Source: a virus. Taken from it: a DNA stretch of 64,000 nucleotides. Where the stretch lies: the IMG/VR virus record IMGVR_UViG_3300042923_001201, positions 30,473 to 94,472 of that record; one strand, 5' to 3'. The notes below the pieces were generated by a model that was given only the letters and a program-made list of their open reading frames with translations, was not told the origin of the DNA and did not search any database. Position numbers and translations under genes: made by a program. Of this stretch, positions 5,413 to 58,509 are shown in pieces (within the stretch, counting starts at the first letter, position 1; each line of letters begins with the position of its first letter).

Positions 5413-5443
5413 TAGAAAAAAAGAGGAGATTAGAATCTCCCCA
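5413..5443 (-). terminator. Terminator of the sigma-RtcB operon
   Basis: Minus strand GGAGAT-TCTA-ATCTCC then TCTTTTTTT, 6 bases after the stop of 5449-5607. The U-tract runs into the next promoter. Confidence 0.75.
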
Positions 5444-5448
5444 ATTTG

Positions 5449-5607
5449 TTAATAGTTAAAGACCTTGATTACGTTTTGAAATATAAGCGGCTGTCCATGA
5501 GGAACAACTAAAATTCCTCGATGAAATTCACTTTGATAAACGTCAACCTTAAACCCAAATTCGAAGAATAATTCGGCCTGAAGTTGTTTTAATTGTTCAT
5601 CGTTCAT
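5449..5607 (-). CDS. 52-residue protein, unknown
   Basis: Starts MNDEQLKQLQAELF, an amphipathic helix, then strands ending in VIKVFNY. The ATG overlaps the previous gene's stop as ATGA and follows AAAGGA, so translation is coupled. It is the last gene of a long operon that starts at the sigma factor. Confidence 0.7.
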   Translation of the reverse strand: MNDEQLKQLQAELFFEFGFKVDVYQSEFHRGILVVPHGQPLIFQNVIKVFNY

Positions 5608-5936
5608 TCCTTCAATCCTTTCAAGTTAACATCCCAGGTTTCTCCGTTGTTGTCAATATATTGAATTTGAACATATTTAAGTGTATGACAGTATCCATCC
5701 CAACCATTATATGGAATATCTAAATCATGTTCATTGTAGTAATTAGGGAGCTGATATGATAACCCATAATTATTTTGTAAATCTACCAAAGCATCTGCGA
5801 TAGTTTCTTCAAATTCTTCTTTTGAATATGTGTTTTCAGTTGTAATATAATCTGCGTCATTTGAGTCAGCGACAATAGTTACAATAAATTTATCTCTTTG
5901 TTTACTTTCAGGTTTTGTTAAAGTATATTTTTCCAT
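5604..5936 (-). CDS. 110-residue protein, unknown
   Basis: Acidic and aromatic-rich, with a tyrosine-rich middle (LSYQLPNYYNEHDLDIPYNG) and a beta-rich C-terminus. The start follows AAGGAGACATTAAA. No family recognised. It sits near the 3' end of the sigma-RtcB operon. Confidence 0.75.
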   Translation of the reverse strand: MEKYTLTKPESKQRDKFIVTIVADSNDADYITTENTYSKEEFEETIADALVDLQNNYGLSYQLPNYYNEHDLDIPYNGWDGYCHTLKYVQIQYIDNNGETWDVNLKGLKE

Positions 5937-5948
5937 TTTAATGTCTCC

Positions 5949-6182
5949 TTATATAGTTTTTTTGGGAGGTGGCAACAGACGTGAAATCGAAGGTTTGTAT
6001 TTATTATAAGAGAATAGAGGACAAGTTTTAGTGTCAGTTAATTCCATTCTTCCTCTATTACAATAGATAGTCTTTTTATAATTTATTACTTTCTTATCTG
6101 AAGTTAAAGTGGGAGCAAGTTGATGCATTGTACAATGAACACAATTAAGACATGTTTTTTCCTTTTTCTTAAACCATTTCAT
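5949..6182 (-). CDS. Cysteine-rich 77-residue protein
   Basis: Has four or more cysteines in a zinc-finger-like spacing: CLNCVHC near the N-terminus, then YCNRG and TCPLF. ATG 6182 follows GGAGAGATTTTG. It is preceded by a leader with a GC-rich hairpin and an AAAAT-4 nt-ATTTT hairpin shared with three other genes (see 6199-6262). Probably a small zinc protein; role unknown. Confidence 0.7.
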   Translation of the reverse strand: MKWFKKKEKTCLNCVHCTMHQLAPTLTSDKKVINYKKTIYCNRGRMELTDTKTCPLFSYNKYKPSISRLLPPPKKTI

Positions 6183-6198
6183 CAAAATCTCTCCTTAA

Positions 6199-6262
6199 TT
6201 AAAATCGACATTTTATTGCTAAAATTGCTCCCTATATCTTACTTTCATAGCATGATTAGGGA
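6199..6262 (-). promoter_or_regulatory. Structured leader of 5949-6182
   Basis: On the minus strand a 10-bp stem (TTGCTCCCTA / TAGGGAGCAA) is followed by ATTTTAGCAA and a second hairpin TAAAAT-GTCG-ATTTTA just before the ribosome site. Similar second hairpins precede the genes at 21252, 50988 and 60056. Confidence 0.5.
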
Positions 6263-6277
6263 GCAAAATGATGATTA

Positions 6278-6547
6278 TCAAGCTAAATTATTGTCCTCTA
6301 AGATATTGCACGTACCATTATATAGATCAAGTGGTACATCTGTTTTTGAATATCCACTTCCACTAATAGTTTCTGCTAGTTCTTTAATATTTTTATTAGA
6401 AGATTTTCTAAGAGAATCAATAACAATATCTGTATATGATTTTGCAAAAATTTCATTAATTACCATTACTTCTGCTAAGGACAATTCAACGGAAATAAAA
6501 ACCTCATGAGGATTAAGGGGCGTCTTATCTTTTTTAATATACTTCAT
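6278..6547 (-). CDS. 89-residue protein, unknown
   Basis: Predicted mostly helical and acidic; no family recognised. The start follows AAAGGATGAATAATT. Co-directional and closely spaced with its neighbours, so a member of the sigma-RtcB operon. It is followed by the hairpin leader described at 6199-6262. Confidence 0.75.
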   Translation of the reverse strand: MKYIKKDKTPLNPHEVFISVELSLAEVMVINEIFAKSYTDIVIDSLRKSSNKNIKELAETISGSGYSKTDVPLDLYNGTCNILEDNNLA

Positions 6548-6549
6548 AA

Positions 6550-6801
6550 TTATTCATCCTTTCCTAATACAAGTTTAATTTCATCGGAGGTATAAAATTT
6601 TTGTTTGTGAGCTATACTTGAAGCAAGTTTACTAATTGTGTCATATGTTAAACTTAGATTTGAAGTTTTGAGATTTACAGCAGCATACTGACCAAAAGCA
6701 ATTTTAACAATAAGATAAGGATCACCTGAAGATTCACCTATAATAACACATCCAACACCCAATATATCTTTATTTTTCTTTTCTTTAATTTTAATTTGCA
6801 T
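6550..6801 (-). CDS. 83-residue protein, unknown
   Basis: Beta-rich N-terminal half (DILGVGCVIIGESSGDPYLI) and helical C-terminus. The layout resembles the small proteins at 16611 and 16948, which also read as short SH3/KOW-like sheets; this is only a visual impression. The start follows AGGAGGAATTAACA. Confidence 0.75.
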   Translation of the reverse strand: MQIKIKEKKNKDILGVGCVIIGESSGDPYLIVKIAFGQYAAVNLKTSNLSLTYDTISKLASSIAHKQKFYTSDEIKLVLGKDE

Positions 6802-6813
6802 TGTTAATTCCTC

Positions 6814-8007
6814 CTATTCTGATGCTTTGAAATTATATAAAGGTTTGATAATATCAACAATATCTACTGATTCTCCAACATTATCAAGAATTTCCTCAAT
6901 GGGTTTATAAGCAAATGGTGATTCATCAAGGGTACTTTGATTAACAGATGTTGTCCAAATATCTTTCATTGTATCTTTAAATTCATCAAGATTAACAAGT
7001 TCCTTTGCTTTTGATCTACTCATCAGACGTCCTGCGCCGTGAGGTCCCGAAAAATTCCAATCAGCATTCCCTTTACCTCGTGCGATAATTGAACCATCTC
7101 TCATATTAATTGGGATGATTACAATTTCTCCACTTTGAGCAGAGATCGCGCCTTTTCGCAAAATCATGTTTTCCATATCAATGTAATTATGGATTGTTGT
7201 GAAGCCACCGATTTCTGTCCAACCCATACCACTGATAATCTCTGCCATCATTGCTTTTCTACTAACTTCAGCATATTTTTGAGCAATTTTCATATCATGC
7301 ATATAGTCTTCGAAACCTTTACCTTGAAGATATGCAAAATCCTTATTTACTTTTCCTGATTTAACACTTTTAAGCATTGTTTCAATTTCAGAATGTCTTC
7401 CTTCTTTTTGTAACTTTTTAATTAGTTCATCTTTTTCGTGTTTTACACTTGTGAGTTCATCATAGGCTCGTTTTTGATAATATTCAGCAATCTGTTTTCC
7501 AAGATTACGTGAGCCTGAGTGAATTACAACTGAAATGTAACCAGAGGATGTTTCATTTACCTCAATGAAGTGATTTCCTCCACCCAATGTACCGATACTG
7601 AGTTGTGCTCGATCAAAGTTAAATGGGGCTCGAACATCTTTCAGATTGGTAATTTGTTTGGCATAATGATGAATACTTCCTCTGATATTGAAACCACTCG
7701 GAACTTGTTTGCGAATTACTTGGTCAAGTTTATCGAAGTTAATTTCATCCTTTTTAACTTCAAAGAATGAAACCTCCATTCCACACCCAATGTCCACGCC
7801 AACAAGATTAGGAACAATCTTGTCAGTGATAGTCATTGTAGTACCAATTGTGCATCCTGCACCAGCGTGAGTATCAGGCATGATGCGGATTTTAGAGTCC
7901 TTTACAAACTCCTGATTACAAAGTGAAATAATTTGACCCAGAGCGGTTTGTTCTACGTTGTCTGTAAAAATTTTTGCACTGTTGTATTTTCCATTTACTT
8001 CAATCAT
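6814..8007 (-). CDS. rtcB: RtcB-type RNA ligase
   Basis: A 397-residue 3'-phosphate RNA ligase that joins 2',3'-cyclic-phosphate or 3'-phosphate ends to 5'-OH ends using GTP and Mn2+. Family motifs are visible: VGVDIGCGMEVSF (metal-binding Asp and Cys), GTLGGGNHFIEV, VVIHSGSRNLG and SGPHGAGRLMSR, where the histidine accepts GMP. In a phage the likely task is repairing tRNAs cut by host anticodon nucleases; this is inferred. The start overlaps the stop of the upstream peptidase gene. Confidence 0.95.
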   Translation of the reverse strand: MIEVNGKYNSAKIFTDNVEQTALGQIISLCNQEFVKDSKIRIMPDTHAGAGCTIGTTMTITDKIVPNLVGVDIGCGMEVSFFEVKKDEINFDKLDQVIRKQVPSGFNIRGSIHHYAKQITNLKDVRAPFNFDRAQLSIGTLGGGNHFIEVNETSSGYISVVIHSGSRNLGKQIAEYYQKRAYDELTSVKHEKDELIKKLQKEGRHSEIETMLKSVKSGKVNKDFAYLQGKGFEDYMHDMKIAQKYAEVSRKAMMAEIISGMGWTEIGGFTTIHNYIDMENMILRKGAISAQSGEIVIIPINMRDGSIIARGKGNADWNFSGPHGAGRLMSRSKAKELVNLDEFKDTMKDIWTTSVNQSTLDESPFAYKPIEEILDNVGESVDIVDIIKPLYNFKASE

Positions 8008-19080: not shown

Positions 19081-19120
19081 AAAAAATCGTTATGATAAAT
19101 TATATACATAACGATTTTTT
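19081..19120 (-). terminator. Terminator with a promoter in its loop
   Basis: Perfect 14-bp arms AAAAAATCGTTATG and CATAACGATTTTTT separated by 12 bases. The loop contains the -10 box of the next gene's promoter. It lies right after the stop of the 485-residue gene. It can end upstream transcription, yet a transcript starting inside the loop carries only one arm and escapes. Confidence 0.75.
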
Positions 19121-19127
19121 CTGTAAA
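19099..19127 (-). promoter_or_regulatory. Promoter for HipA-glycosyltransferase unit
   Basis: Minus strand GG-TTTACA, 17 bp, TATAAT, 40 bases before the start at 19059. Confidence 0.75.
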
Positions 19128-19138
19128 CCAGGATTCAA

Positions 19139-24377: not shown

Positions 24378-24406
24378 ATTATATATAAATTGAATGAAGG
24401 TGTAAA
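24378..24406 (-). promoter_or_regulatory. Promoter of sugar-activation operon
   Basis: Minus strand GG-TTTACA, 17 bp, TATAAT, 28 bases before TTG 24350. Confidence 0.78.
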
Positions 24407-24424
24407 CCAAGATTAAAATTAATT

Positions 24425-50135: not shown

Positions 50136-50164
50136 ATTATATATAGTAATCGGACTTTTGTAAA
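50136..50164 (-). promoter_or_regulatory. Promoter of Sak4-phoH-reductase operon
   Basis: Minus strand GG-TTTACA, 17 bp, TATAAT, 35 bases before 50101. Confidence 0.78.
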
Positions 50165-50166
50165 CC

Positions 50167-54601: not shown

Positions 54602-54626
54602 AGGAGTGTTTCCACTCCTATTTTTT
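54602..54626. terminator. Hairpin after sigma-like gene
   Basis: AGGAGTG-GAAA-CACTCCT (minus) sits at the stop of 54618; on the plus strand it is followed by ATTTTTTT, and on the minus strand by TATTTAATTT. Probably a weak terminator on the minus strand. Confidence 0.5.
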
Positions 54627-55568
54627 TGTTGCAATTGCTACTTTTACAATTCTATCAACAAGCATGTTAATATTTTTATTGACACGTTGTTTTGAGATGT
54701 TTAGGGTTTCAGCGATTTCTGTTTGACCTTTATTAGATCTCATTAGGGAAACAATTTCTTTTTGAAGTGGTGTAGGTTTTGCTCTATTTAATTTTTCTAC
54801 AAATTCATCAATAAGATATTGAAGATCTTCATCTAATCTATAACCTGGTCTCATATACAATAGAGCCTTAACATGTTCAGGATTTGTTAGGTCACAAAAG
54901 TCCCAATCAACTACCATACTTTCACTTGCATTGGACTTGTATCCAAACACTCCCAATAACATGTCCTTTGTAAGAACCATATCTTGTCTCACAGAACCAG
55001 AGATTTCAGATAATTTATAACGTGTCAGTTTAGAGTCCTTGTAATTAGTAAGTTCCTTTGTAATTTCTTTAAGATATGATCTGTAAATTCGAAGGATATC
55101 ACCAAGTTCGTCTGTTCGATCATAGTCGGTTTTACTAATAGTTTGAGTTTTAGGTGTTTTATAATTTCTATTTTCATTTTTAAGGAAGTGAATCACATTT
55201 TCTTGTTGATCTCCATTGCCCATTCCTTCAATATTAGGTTCTTTCATAAGAGCTTTTTTAAATGACATTTCATCATTATAAAATACATAGTGATCTTCCT
55301 TTTTTGCTTCCTTTGACTCATCAGAATTTAAAAGGTAATTTGCCATTTTTTCCAAAGATAGACAAACACTGTCTTGTTCAGATAGTCCATCACCCGAATT
55401 AATATTTACCTTAAAATATTTTTCAAAGTATTCTTCGTGGAACTTTGTATCTAAAATATCATCAATAATTTCTTTTCTATCTTTTAAACTACTTTTAGTG
55501 TAGTCAATTTTTTTAATCAGATCAGTCTGTGTAACATTATTAATTTCTCCAATAAAAAACGTACTCAT
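54618..55568 (-). CDS. Sigma-like / HTH regulator
   Basis: A 316-residue protein from ATG 55568 (AAGGAGGAAATAAT). The last ~60 residues are a region-4-like helix-turn-helix (TPLQKEIVSLMRSNKGQTEI, AETLNISKQRVNKNINML). The N-terminal two thirds are charged, helical and unrecognised. It may be a divergent sigma factor or a repressor/activator of later genes; a second sigma (10501) is clearer. Confidence 0.65.
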   Translation of the reverse strand: MSTFFIGEINNVTQTDLIKKIDYTKSSLKDRKEIIDDILDTKFHEEYFEKYFKVNINSGDGLSEQDSVCLSLEKMANYLLNSDESKEAKKEDHYVFYNDEMSFKKALMKEPNIEGMGNGDQQENVIHFLKNENRNYKTPKTQTISKTDYDRTDELGDILRIYRSYLKEITKELTNYKDSKLTRYKLSEISGSVRQDMVLTKDMLLGVFGYKSNASESMVVDWDFCDLTNPEHVKALLYMRPGYRLDEDLQYLIDEFVEKLNRAKPTPLQKEIVSLMRSNKGQTEIAETLNISKQRVNKNINMLVDRIVKVAIATKK

Positions 55569-55596
55569 ATTATTTCCTCCTTGTTGGTTATACATT

Positions 55597-55625
55597 ATTA
55601 TATGTAGAATCAGACTTTCTGTAAA
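55597..55625 (-). promoter_or_regulatory. Promoter of sigma-like gene
   Basis: Minus strand GG-TTTACA, 17 bp, TATAAT, 29 bases before 55568. Confidence 0.8.
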
Positions 55626-55627
55626 CC

Positions 55628-55652
55628 AAAAAGCCTCCCCGAAGGAAGGCGA
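55628..55652 (-). terminator. Terminator of NAD-pair operon
   Basis: Minus strand GCCTTCC-TTCG-GGGAGGC followed by TTTTTGG, which is the start of the next promoter's GGTTTACA. Confidence 0.88.
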
Positions 55653-55663
55653 TTGAATATTTC

Positions 55664-55822
55664 CTAATTATCAATATTATTTAAAGCTATAGCAAAATGA
55701 GCAATTATAAGAAGTATACCTATTACATCAAAAATTGAAGGATTATCAACTGGAAAGATTATAATCGAAAAACATAATGCCATATAAAATGAGCCTTCTT
55801 TAAATAATTTAGATAGCTTCAT
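55664..55822 (-). CDS. 52-residue membrane protein
   Basis: Two hydrophobic helices (about residues 10-24 and 33-47). The start follows TTTGGAGGCATAGAT, inside the 3' end of the Namat-like gene region. Unknown function; third gene of the NAD-pair operon. Confidence 0.6.
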   Translation of the reverse strand: MKLSKLFKEGSFYMALCFSIIIFPVDNPSIFDVIGILLIIAHFAIALNNIDN

Positions 55823-55824
55823 AT

Positions 55825-57594
55825 CTATGCCTCCAAATTTGATAGTAAAGTAGCTCGAATATCACTCAATTTCTGATCTACAAGTAGTTTACCATCTTCA
55901 AATACAGGTTTAAGTAAATCAATACTTTCGGACCATCCTTGCTCCTTAATTGTAAATCCATCATGATACTCAATATTTCCATTTTCTTCATTATTATATA
56001 CAACAACTCTACCTTTTTGTGAGCGTTTTAGTCCGTTATCCGTTTTAGGATCTTTAAATAGGAACTTTTCTTCATTATTGATTACCGCATGAGTGGCCTT
56101 CATAGCAAATCCGAAGGTATCTCGAGTGTTATATTGATAAGTAAAGGAACCAATGCCTAGCACTACATTTGTTGAAGCAAATCCTTTTGCTTTCAAACGC
56201 TTGCAAATTTCTTCCGCGCGTTCAAGTGTGATGGAATCTCCATAAATTGCACCGATATGAGTGTCGAGTAATTTATAACCTGTTTCAGTAATTGTACCAC
56301 CAAAAGTATTCCATAATGACTCAATTAAACCAAGTTGTTGAGCAGTAGGTGTAATTTCTTCAATTGATGTAACTCTGTGTCCGTCAATAAAGTAATACTG
56401 TTTGTCATATCTATTCCAATCAATTTCAACTTTTGCCTTAAAATACTTGTCTTTATATTTAAAGGTTCCCTCTACTTCATGATCTCCGTGTTCGCCATGG
56501 TCTGTTTCACTACGAACCTTATCTACAAGGATGTCTTCTACCCAATCTTTAATTTGATAAATTAGTTCCCCATCCTCTTTGACATATTTTTCAAAGCGAG
56601 TAAGATCCTCAATATCTTCACCACAAAGAATTTCTACAGGGTCTCCCGAATCAGGTCTAATTACCACTCGTCCATCTCTACTTGTAATTTCATTTTTGAG
56701 TGAAGGAATTACATTTTCTACAATGTTCCAAAAATCCCATGTATCACTTACTACAGAAAAGAATCCAGTAGGATAGATTTCCTGCATAAGTTTACGGATT
56801 ACTTCACGTTCATCCTCATTGCCATTCGCACACATAACTGAGTGTTCAGTTGCAGGAATAGAGGTTCCTACAAGTTCTGTCTCAATGTTAGCATTGTAAT
56901 ATTCCTCGAGATACAAGATTGCAGGAATTGTATCTGTTCCAACGAAAGACAAAAGGTGAGCTGCACCAGAGGCTTTAGTGGCATCCAATCCTGCCATACC
57001 TCTCATAGAGAAGTCATGTCCTTGGAAAGGAACTGTATCAGCATTACCAACTGTTTCAATCGCATATTTTTGCAATATTTTGCGGTATTGGAAGGCAATA
57101 GTTGCAGAAGTCATTGGCAACCAAACAAGGTTGGATATCAAAGTTTCAAGGTAATTTGTAACCCAGAAAAACTCATCTTTAGTATTTTCAATTGTAAAAG
57201 CAGGTACACGAATAGGTACAAGTGTTCCTTCAGGTATAGCTCTAATAAGAACAGGAAGTTTATTATAGTCCCACAATGCTTTAATATGAGAAGAATCGGG
57301 ATTTTCTACACCTAAAGTATGTTTGATTACTCTTTCATACTCTCCCTGTACATCTACCCAATGACGATTAAAGAAATTTTCATTAAAATAATCAATAAGA
57401 AATTCTTTAATAAATGCTTGAAGTCCGAACATTACAATCTTGTCAATTCCTTTAATTCGACTTCCCCTCGGCGTCCATGTACTATAAACCTGTTGAGTAC
57501 CTGTAGGATACTGCTCCCGGTGACTGACCTTATAAAAGTCGCAGAGAAGTGATGCAGGAAAAGCGATACGATTAATACGATTAACAGTTTTCAT
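55825..57594 (-). CDS. Nicotinamide phosphoribosyltransferase-like (Nampt / Namat) enzyme
   Basis: A 589-residue type II phosphoribosyltransferase-like protein: LLCDFYKVSHREQYPTG at the N-terminus, FQGHDFSMRGMAGLDA, PATEHSVMCANGNEDE, VSDTWDFWNIVE and VIRPDSGDP, all typical of Nampt. Usual length is about 490; the ~90-residue insertion at about 315-405 contains an acidic/His-rich stretch. In a NARP1-type pathway a relative (Namat) joins nicotinamide to ADPR-pyrophosphate to restore NAD+. It shares a base with the Prs-like gene stop, so the two are cotranscribed. Confidence 0.9.
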   Translation of the reverse strand: MKTVNRINRIAFPASLLCDFYKVSHREQYPTGTQQVYSTWTPRGSRIKGIDKIVMFGLQAFIKEFLIDYFNENFFNRHWVDVQGEYERVIKHTLGVENPDSSHIKALWDYNKLPVLIRAIPEGTLVPIRVPAFTIENTKDEFFWVTNYLETLISNLVWLPMTSATIAFQYRKILQKYAIETVGNADTVPFQGHDFSMRGMAGLDATKASGAAHLLSFVGTDTIPAILYLEEYYNANIETELVGTSIPATEHSVMCANGNEDEREVIRKLMQEIYPTGFFSVVSDTWDFWNIVENVIPSLKNEITSRDGRVVIRPDSGDPVEILCGEDIEDLTRFEKYVKEDGELIYQIKDWVEDILVDKVRSETDHGEHGDHEVEGTFKYKDKYFKAKVEIDWNRYDKQYYFIDGHRVTSIEEITPTAQQLGLIESLWNTFGGTITETGYKLLDTHIGAIYGDSITLERAEEICKRLKAKGFASTNVVLGIGSFTYQYNTRDTFGFAMKATHAVINNEEKFLFKDPKTDNGLKRSQKGRVVVYNNEENGNIEYHDGFTIKEQGWSESIDLLKPVFEDGKLLVDQKLSDIRATLLSNLEA

Positions 57595-58445
57595 TAATTG
57601 AATCCTCCCAATTTATAAACTTTTAATTGTTCTGTTTCTTCATGGTGTCTAACAAAGAAATCTTTCGTGTCAAGAATACTGTCTGTTGTATAAACTCTAT
57701 CAATTAAATCTTCCTTAAAAATTGAACCTTTAAAAATAGAATCTTCACAATGAGCAACAAGAAGATAAATATACTCAAAACCATTCTTATAAAGTTCTTT
57801 GGCAGATCTTGTGAAAGTTCCTCCGTAAGAACAAAGATCATCAATAATAATCACTTTTCTGTTAGGTTTGTATTCAGGAACATTACCTACAATATCCAAA
57901 CCTTCAATATTTCCCGTTTCCCAATTTCTTTTCTTAAATCCAACAAGTTGATTATGACCCGGAATATCATACCGTTTTTGAGCACCTGCATCAGGAAAGA
58001 AAATATAATCTTTCTCAATATCAAAGTCAATATCTTTCTTTACCCATTTAAGAATATTATAATTAATATTTTTGTTATCACATCTGTCAATAAGTGCAGG
58101 AGTAACATCAGAATGCGCTTCATGAATATTTACTTCAGCAAAATTAAGTGAATTAATAAATTCGGCGATGTATTTCAAAGTAAATACTGAATCATTTACA
58201 CTCCTGTCCATTCTACTATAAGGTACATAAGGACAATACAATATAATATCTTTAACACCTAACGAATCAAGATGTTTTTTAATAATCATCAGATGAATAA
58301 GATCTCTATCATCTTCGAACCTAAAGTGAATAATATTTACATCATCTTCAAAAGTGTAGATATGTTTGTTAATTGAGTCTTCAATCTTTGATTCTTTGTT
58401 CGGAAATTGTGAAATTTCAACCTTTTTTCCATTAAGCCAGATCAT
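57594..58445 (-). CDS. PRPP-synthetase-like enzyme (candidate Adps)
   Basis: A 283-residue Prs homologue. The family motifs are CPYVPYSRMDRSV (residues 71-83) and VIIIDDLCSYGGT (198-210). It either makes PRPP for the neighbouring Nampt or, as reported for phage Adps, pyrophosphorylates ADP-ribose. The fused genetic layout favours a two-step NAD+-salvage path. Confidence 0.88.
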   Translation of the reverse strand: MIWLNGKKVEISQFPNKESKIEDSINKHIYTFEDDVNIIHFRFEDDRDLIHLMIIKKHLDSLGVKDIILYCPYVPYSRMDRSVNDSVFTLKYIAEFINSLNFAEVNIHEAHSDVTPALIDRCDNKNINYNILKWVKKDIDFDIEKDYIFFPDAGAQKRYDIPGHNQLVGFKKRNWETGNIEGLDIVGNVPEYKPNRKVIIIDDLCSYGGTFTRSAKELYKNGFEYIYLLVAHCEDSIFKGSIFKEDLIDRVYTTDSILDTKDFFVRHHEETEQLKVYKLGGFN

Positions 58446-58474: not shown

Positions 58475-58503
58475 ATTGTATAATTTTGTAATTAAACTGT
58501 AAA
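58475..58503 (-). promoter_or_regulatory. Promoter of NAD-pair operon
   Basis: Minus strand GG-TTTACA, 17 bp, TACAAT, 30 bases before 58445. Confidence 0.72.
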
Positions 58504-58509
58504 CCAATT

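Follow-up and report, generated by a model that had tools for sequence, protein, structure and literature searches.

The operon and its genomic setting

The operon lies in a stretch of 64,000 nucleotides, here called the window, which forms part of a 94,472-bp and possibly incomplete IMG/VR virus record (IMGVR_UViG_3300042923_001201). All of its features are on the minus strand. A 283-aa gene of the Prs superfamily (57594..58445) is followed by a 589-aa gene of the Nampt superfamily (55825..57594), as a first-pass annotation had described. Open reading frame, families and motifs, together with the tree, mark the former as Adps-like (ADP-ribose pyrophosphate synthetase); open reading frame, families, residues, tree and structural model mark the latter as Namat-like (nicotinamide ADP-ribose transferase). 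The two reading frames overlap by 1 nt in the sequence TAATG, and GGGAGGA is found about 8 nt ahead of the start codon of the second gene.

That annotation had also placed the pair under one promoter with a terminator behind, and both elements can be located. A promoter-like motif, GGTTTACA-N17-TACAAT, lies just 5' of the Prs-like gene (58475..58505), and an intrinsic terminator-like hairpin, GCCTTCC-TTCG-GGGAGGC followed by TTTTT, closes the operon (55633..55650). The operon motif exactly repeats one that recurs across the phage, of which the phage-wide form is also written GGTTTACA-N17-TATAAT. With up to 2 mismatches allowed, the window holds 25 sites against 2.4 expected (for example 19099-19129, 24378-24408, 50136-50166, 55597-55627 and 58475-58505), so the motif is very likely a promoter of this phage, and it is helpful for delimiting the operons of the phage. 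Absent from the first-pass annotation is a 52-aa open reading frame, hydrophobic and membrane-protein-like (55664..55822), which sits between the Nampt-like gene and the hairpin as the final reading frame ahead of the terminator; it has no relatives among the related loci that were fetched. Directly 3' of the operon, a gene for a 325-aa protein resembling a PHROG sigma factor (2.6e-51; 54618-55595, minus strand) has its own promoter motif at 55597-55627.

Around the operon are the replication genes of a phage, encoding topoisomerase II, DNA polymerase, ribonucleotide reductase, thymidylate synthase and thymidine kinase. The source is a large phage, probably of the Bacillus type; no known phage is similar to it at the DNA level, and PADLOC returned no match.

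Enzyme identity and the proposed route to NAD+

The product of the second gene matches the Pfam families NAPRTase (2.3e-39) and NAMPT_N (7.9e-10) and the PHROG nicotinamide phosphoribosyl transferase (1.9e-202). By sequence, its best match in the PDB is the Namat of phage SPbetaL1 (9w5w/9w5x; E about 1e-208), followed by NadV of Haemophilus ducreyi (4e-148), with Xanthomonas and human Nampt at about 1e-63 to 1e-64. An AlphaFold2 model (pLDDT 91.9, pTM 0.90) searched with Foldseek gives the same order of closest structures: SPbetaL1 Namat with a TM score of 0.97 on the target and 54% identity, and human Nampt with 0.92 and about 27%. In the comparison proposed by the first-pass annotation, the protein is nearest to the solved Namat.

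The specificity of Namat for ADPR-PP is set by a clamp consisting of the loop residue R40 and the helix motif GSX-Phi-X-Phi-X-Phi-TRD, the aromatics of which stack on adenine (PMC12774641). The clamp loop was defined by its stacking residue, R40 in SPbetaL1, or by K/Y and then a stacking residue, and the window protein has such a loop (aa 41-52, TPRGSRIKGIDK, 57439..57474), with R46, in TPRGSR, at the position of SPbetaL1 R40. Its clamp helix, GSFTYQYNTRD (aa 482-492, 56119..56151), fits the published motif. Nineteen of the 20 NAD+-contacting residues of SPbetaL1 Namat are identical in the window protein, and the sole difference, A362 to S, is shared with Bas63 and DyoEdafos. The core that handles nicotinamide, ribose and phosphate is kept (D13, Y15, F189, R192, D215, A242, H245, R306, D308, G360, D361 and R399 in SPbetaL1 numbering). 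Six Nampt proteins served as controls (human, Xanthomonas, V05, CfP1, Ccr34 and RpAliso, the last two encoded beside NMN adenylyltransferases), and all six have GG(G/A)L..., no clamp aromatics and a shorter loop.

In the tree, the window protein falls in the Namat clade (support of 100 against Nampt) and within an 11-row set with SPbetaL1 (97). Also inside this clade is H. ducreyi NadV, which was crystallized with NMN; phylogeny of the second gene alone is therefore no proof of ADPR-PP use. The tree that includes NadV does not fix the deep order among Namats. NadV has GAQTYQRNTRD, with Q and R at the two aromatic positions of the clamp, and so the argument is carried by the residues and the gene partner rather than by phylogeny alone. 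On its residues and predicted structure the second gene is a Namat.

The first gene product matches Pfam Pribosyltran_N (9.4e-6) and PHROG ribose-phosphate pyrophosphokinase (5.4e-68). Since the literature consulted contains no Adps structure, we compared three Adps proteins, those of SPbetaL1, DyoEdafos and Bas63, with canonical Prs. Bas63 we take to be the founding NARP1 system. Its Namat is handled as a NARP1 Namat in PMC12774641, and the activities of SPbetaL1 and DyoEdafos Adps have been published (PMC12774641, PMC13232231). The motif contrast that emerged was derived here from the sequences: canonical Prs has DLHA and DT(G/A)GT, whereas Adps-like proteins have [DE]xHS and an altered ribose-phosphate loop. 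The window protein has EAHSDVT, PDAGAQKRY and DDLCSYGGTF where SPbetaL1 has EPHSDVT, PDAGAAKRY and DDLSSFGGTF; it lacks both canonical motifs and scores 85 bits under TIGR01251 (ribose-phosphate diphosphokinase), below the cut-off of 113. A scan of viral contigs confirmed no relatives of the Adps gene, so relatives were drawn from the Namat loci; nearly all loci with a clamp have an Adps-like gene nearby on the same strand. The resulting tree splits canonical Prs from the Adps-like proteins (98) and places the window protein in a 22-row set with SPbetaL1 (97), which answers the call of the first-pass annotation for alignment and phylogeny by grouping it with characterized Adps. We accordingly name the first gene, by its motifs and grouping, as the putative adps.

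NARP1 was reportedly first described by Osterman et al. (Nature 2024). In the proposed mechanism, host defense NADases (TIR, SIR2 or SEFIR effectors) cleave NAD+ to ADP-ribose and nicotinamide. Adps would then use ATP to put pyrophosphate on ADP-ribose, forming ADPR-PP, and Namat would replace that pyrophosphate with nicotinamide, regenerating NAD+ in two steps. Arrangement, families, residues and motifs are read from the sequence, and we infer the reactions, the counter-defense role and its timing; because the reactions have been established for relatives rather than for this pair, the mechanism is assigned by relationship. We put the probability that the operon is a phage NARP1, rebuilding NAD+ after the action of host defense NADases, at roughly 0.87. 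The same reading in the first-pass annotation gains support from the Namat clamp, from the grouping of Adps and from the lack of an NMN adenylyltransferase domain (PF01467), which that annotation had noted for the window and which extends to the whole 94,472-bp record (14 of 14 controls positive); since the record may be incomplete, this absence is a weak point. Canonical placement of both proteins together with an NMN adenylyltransferase elsewhere in the genome, the outcome which that annotation had set against its own reading, was not seen in the sequence tests.

It is formally possible that the pair carries out plain NMN synthesis, with the first enzyme producing PRPP, the second NMN, and a host NMN adenylyltransferase completing NAD+. 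Prs and Nampt are indeed the superfamilies of the two proteins, Namat retains some activity with PRPP and yields NMN from it in vitro (PMC12774641), and the NMN-bound NadV is a member of the same clade. However, the window Namat has the full ADPR-PP clamp, and its partner groups separately from Prs, has DDLCSYGGT instead of DTGGT as its ribose-phosphate loop, and falls short of the TIGR01251 cut-off. Clamp and Adps pattern, together with the lack of PF01467 in the record, make the plain NMN route less likely, and we regard it as very improbable. General nucleotide or NAD supply during infection, with no counter-defense role, would suit a neighborhood containing thymidine kinase, thymidylate synthase and ribonucleotide reductase genes. 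Yet ADP-ribose is no ordinary precursor, and published NARP1 operons protect cells from NADase defenses (PMC12774641) and use the products of immune signals (PMC13232231), so that a supply function appears quite unlikely.

The insertion domain of Namat

The window Namat has an insertion of about 100 aa (about aa 326-420, 56335..56619) where SPbetaL1 Namat has 15 residues. The first-pass annotation had recorded an insertion of about 90 residues and taken it as consistent with a changed substrate; the insertion is real, but the substrate argument fails. Among close relatives it has been gained or lost in at least 11 state changes over 73 rows, and the Namats of SPbetaL1 and DyoEdafos work without it. 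The insertion is therefore no mark of a changed substrate, and this explanation was rejected. NARP1 Namats occur with or without the insertion, and specificity resides in the clamp.

Even so, sequence and model describe the insertion as a conserved domain that folds independently. Modeled alone it is composed of helices and a three-stranded sheet (pLDDT 85.8, pTM 0.73), with the signature T-P/D-HGE-x-G ... WNRYDKQYY, and T, H, G, E, G, R, D, K and Y are invariant in a set of 15 sequences. It is present in the Namats of about 40 viral contigs and was recognized in 38 phage records. It belongs to no Pfam family, and its fold has no match in the PDB (best E 0.26). The only significant match in BFVD is A0A1C9LVZ4 (156 aa, 40% identity, 8.8e-7), which from its length and identity is evidently the stand-alone insertion-domain protein of Vibrio phage S4-7 (L074, 3734-4204, 156 aa). 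A second stand-alone form is encoded in L152 (3872-4216, 114 aa), and neither has a Namat nearby. The window Namat matches phage S4-7 only through the insertion domain; the annotation of the S4-7 protein as nicotinamide phosphoribosyl transferase looks mistaken. An origin of the insertion as a homing element or intein was considered and rejected, given the lack of a Pfam match, the alpha-beta mini-domain model (pLDDT 86) and a motif common to many phages. The word "insertion" is absent from the open-access paper on the Namat structure.

One reading would have the insertion alter the function of a NARP1-type pair, through another donor or through a defense signal as ligand. Strong conservation, independent folding in the model and free-standing forms away from any Namat would be in keeping with this, but the active-site and clamp residues are unchanged, the domain comes and goes among close relatives as described above, and the insertion at the same place in Bas63 Namat is very divergent. 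We consider an altered function unlikely. It is possible, and we propose it tentatively, that the insertion is an unnamed phage domain with a ligand or a partner from the host, such as an immune signal built on ADPR or an inhibitor, and that it adjusts Namat during defense; any such role in regulation or ligand binding is a guess.

Related operons and a candidate nicotinate branch

The NARP1 system of Bacillus phage SPbetaL1 (Adps WIT26982.1, Namat WIT26983.1; PDB 9w5w, 9w5x) has the same Adps-Namat order with overlapping ends, about 52-54% identity per protein and every clamp and catalytic residue, but its 491-aa Namat lacks the insertion domain and it has no relative of the 52-aa open reading frame. 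The closest isolated phage is Bacillus phage vB_BcoS-136, the prs and nicotinamide phosphoribosyl transferase pair of which (57% and 48% identity) has the same insertion domain, overlapping genes and a terminator behind, although the 52-aa open reading frame is not conserved and the clamp loop has K rather than R. Escherichia phage Bas63 (JohannRWettstein) shares the Adps-Namat order and has a 593-aa Namat, but its insertion is only a weak profile match (7e-6). Mycobacterium phage DyoEdafos, with NARP1 and RyDEP, has Adps, Namat, the clamp-loop R and the helix GSFTYQHNTRD; unlike the window, it has a cyclic-ADPR glycosidase gene between Adps and Namat and no insertion domain. H. ducreyi NadV (PDB 9ke8, 9keo), at 43% identity, is in the Namat clade but has Q and R in place of clamp aromatics and was crystallized with NMN and nicotinamide. 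NARP2-type salvage, as in Caulobacter phage Ccr34 and Ruegeria phage RpAliso, has the Nampt fold and catalytic core in common with the window protein; however, it lacks the clamp aromatics, has a short loop at the clamp position and has an NMN adenylyltransferase in place of Adps. Neither NadM nor NadR is encoded with the window Nampt-like gene within the 94,472-bp, possibly incomplete record. The window operon is a further example of the known NARP1 system, and what is new is the conserved and previously undescribed extra domain in its Namat.

Other related loci show additional features. In L013 and L034 a macro-domain gene lies between Adps and Namat at 5446-5946 (Pfam Macro, 1.2e-4 in L013), and its product is possibly an ADP-ribose-releasing partner; an open reading frame of L046 (5502-5978) resembles it by eye, with no Pfam match. 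Four loci (L050, L051, L052 and L065) encode a Namat with E, not D, at 215 and have the Adps gene downstream rather than upstream. The Namat gene of Pectobacterium phage phiTE (L061, 5908-8371) is split by an HNH endonuclease gene, and that of L032 (2487-5221) by a homing-endonuclease-like open reading frame right after the clamp motif, which suggests that an intron or intein occupies a highly conserved position.

In a further clade, the Namat-like proteins carry A215 and S242 (SPbetaL1 numbering). Asp215 of SPbetaL1 Namat hydrogen-bonds nicotinamide (PMC12774641) and aligns with Asp219 of human NAMPT, which defines base specificity (PMC7096376). An isochorismatase-fold gene is found in the fetched flank of 20 of the 24 A215/S242 loci (L076, L083-L091, L093, L095-L098, L059, L060, L063, L068 and L069; Namat-like gene mostly at about 6000-7500), against 0 of 68 D215/A242 loci. 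A D-K-C and metal-site pattern is expected of nicotinamidases. These neighbor genes keep that pattern, mostly directly adjoin the Adps gene, and vary in placement: upstream of Adps, between Adps and Namat, or downstream. The one in L076 lies at 5427-5978. The clamp helix loop is also longer in most A215/S242 proteins (GSFSMxC...PFTRD), and the carriers are mostly gut Bacillota and phages. Because the clade is one lineage, the 24 loci are not independent events. We regard the substituted enzymes with their nicotinamidase-like partners as a candidate nicotinate-using variant of NARP1, in which nicotinamide would be deamidated and nicotinate joined to ADPR-PP, giving deamido-NAD for the host NAD synthetase. 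A literature search pairing NARP1 with nicotinamidase listed no paper in which NARP1 appears. The window Namat is of the nicotinamide type (D215, A242), and its record contains neither macro nor isochorismatase domains.

A complete and intact NARP1 operon is now placed in a large phage, and if the NARP1 reading is true, this phage should withstand defenses that cleave NAD+ to ADP-ribose. The published clamp motif and the Adps loop pattern derived here can tell ADPR-PP enzymes from plain Nampt and Prs in raw sequence. If the insertion tunes Namat, NARP1 in such phages would be a regulated rather than a constitutive enzyme. The D215A operons with nicotinamidase, if confirmed, would add a new, nicotinate-dependent branch to the ways in which phages and bacteria reconstitute NAD+.
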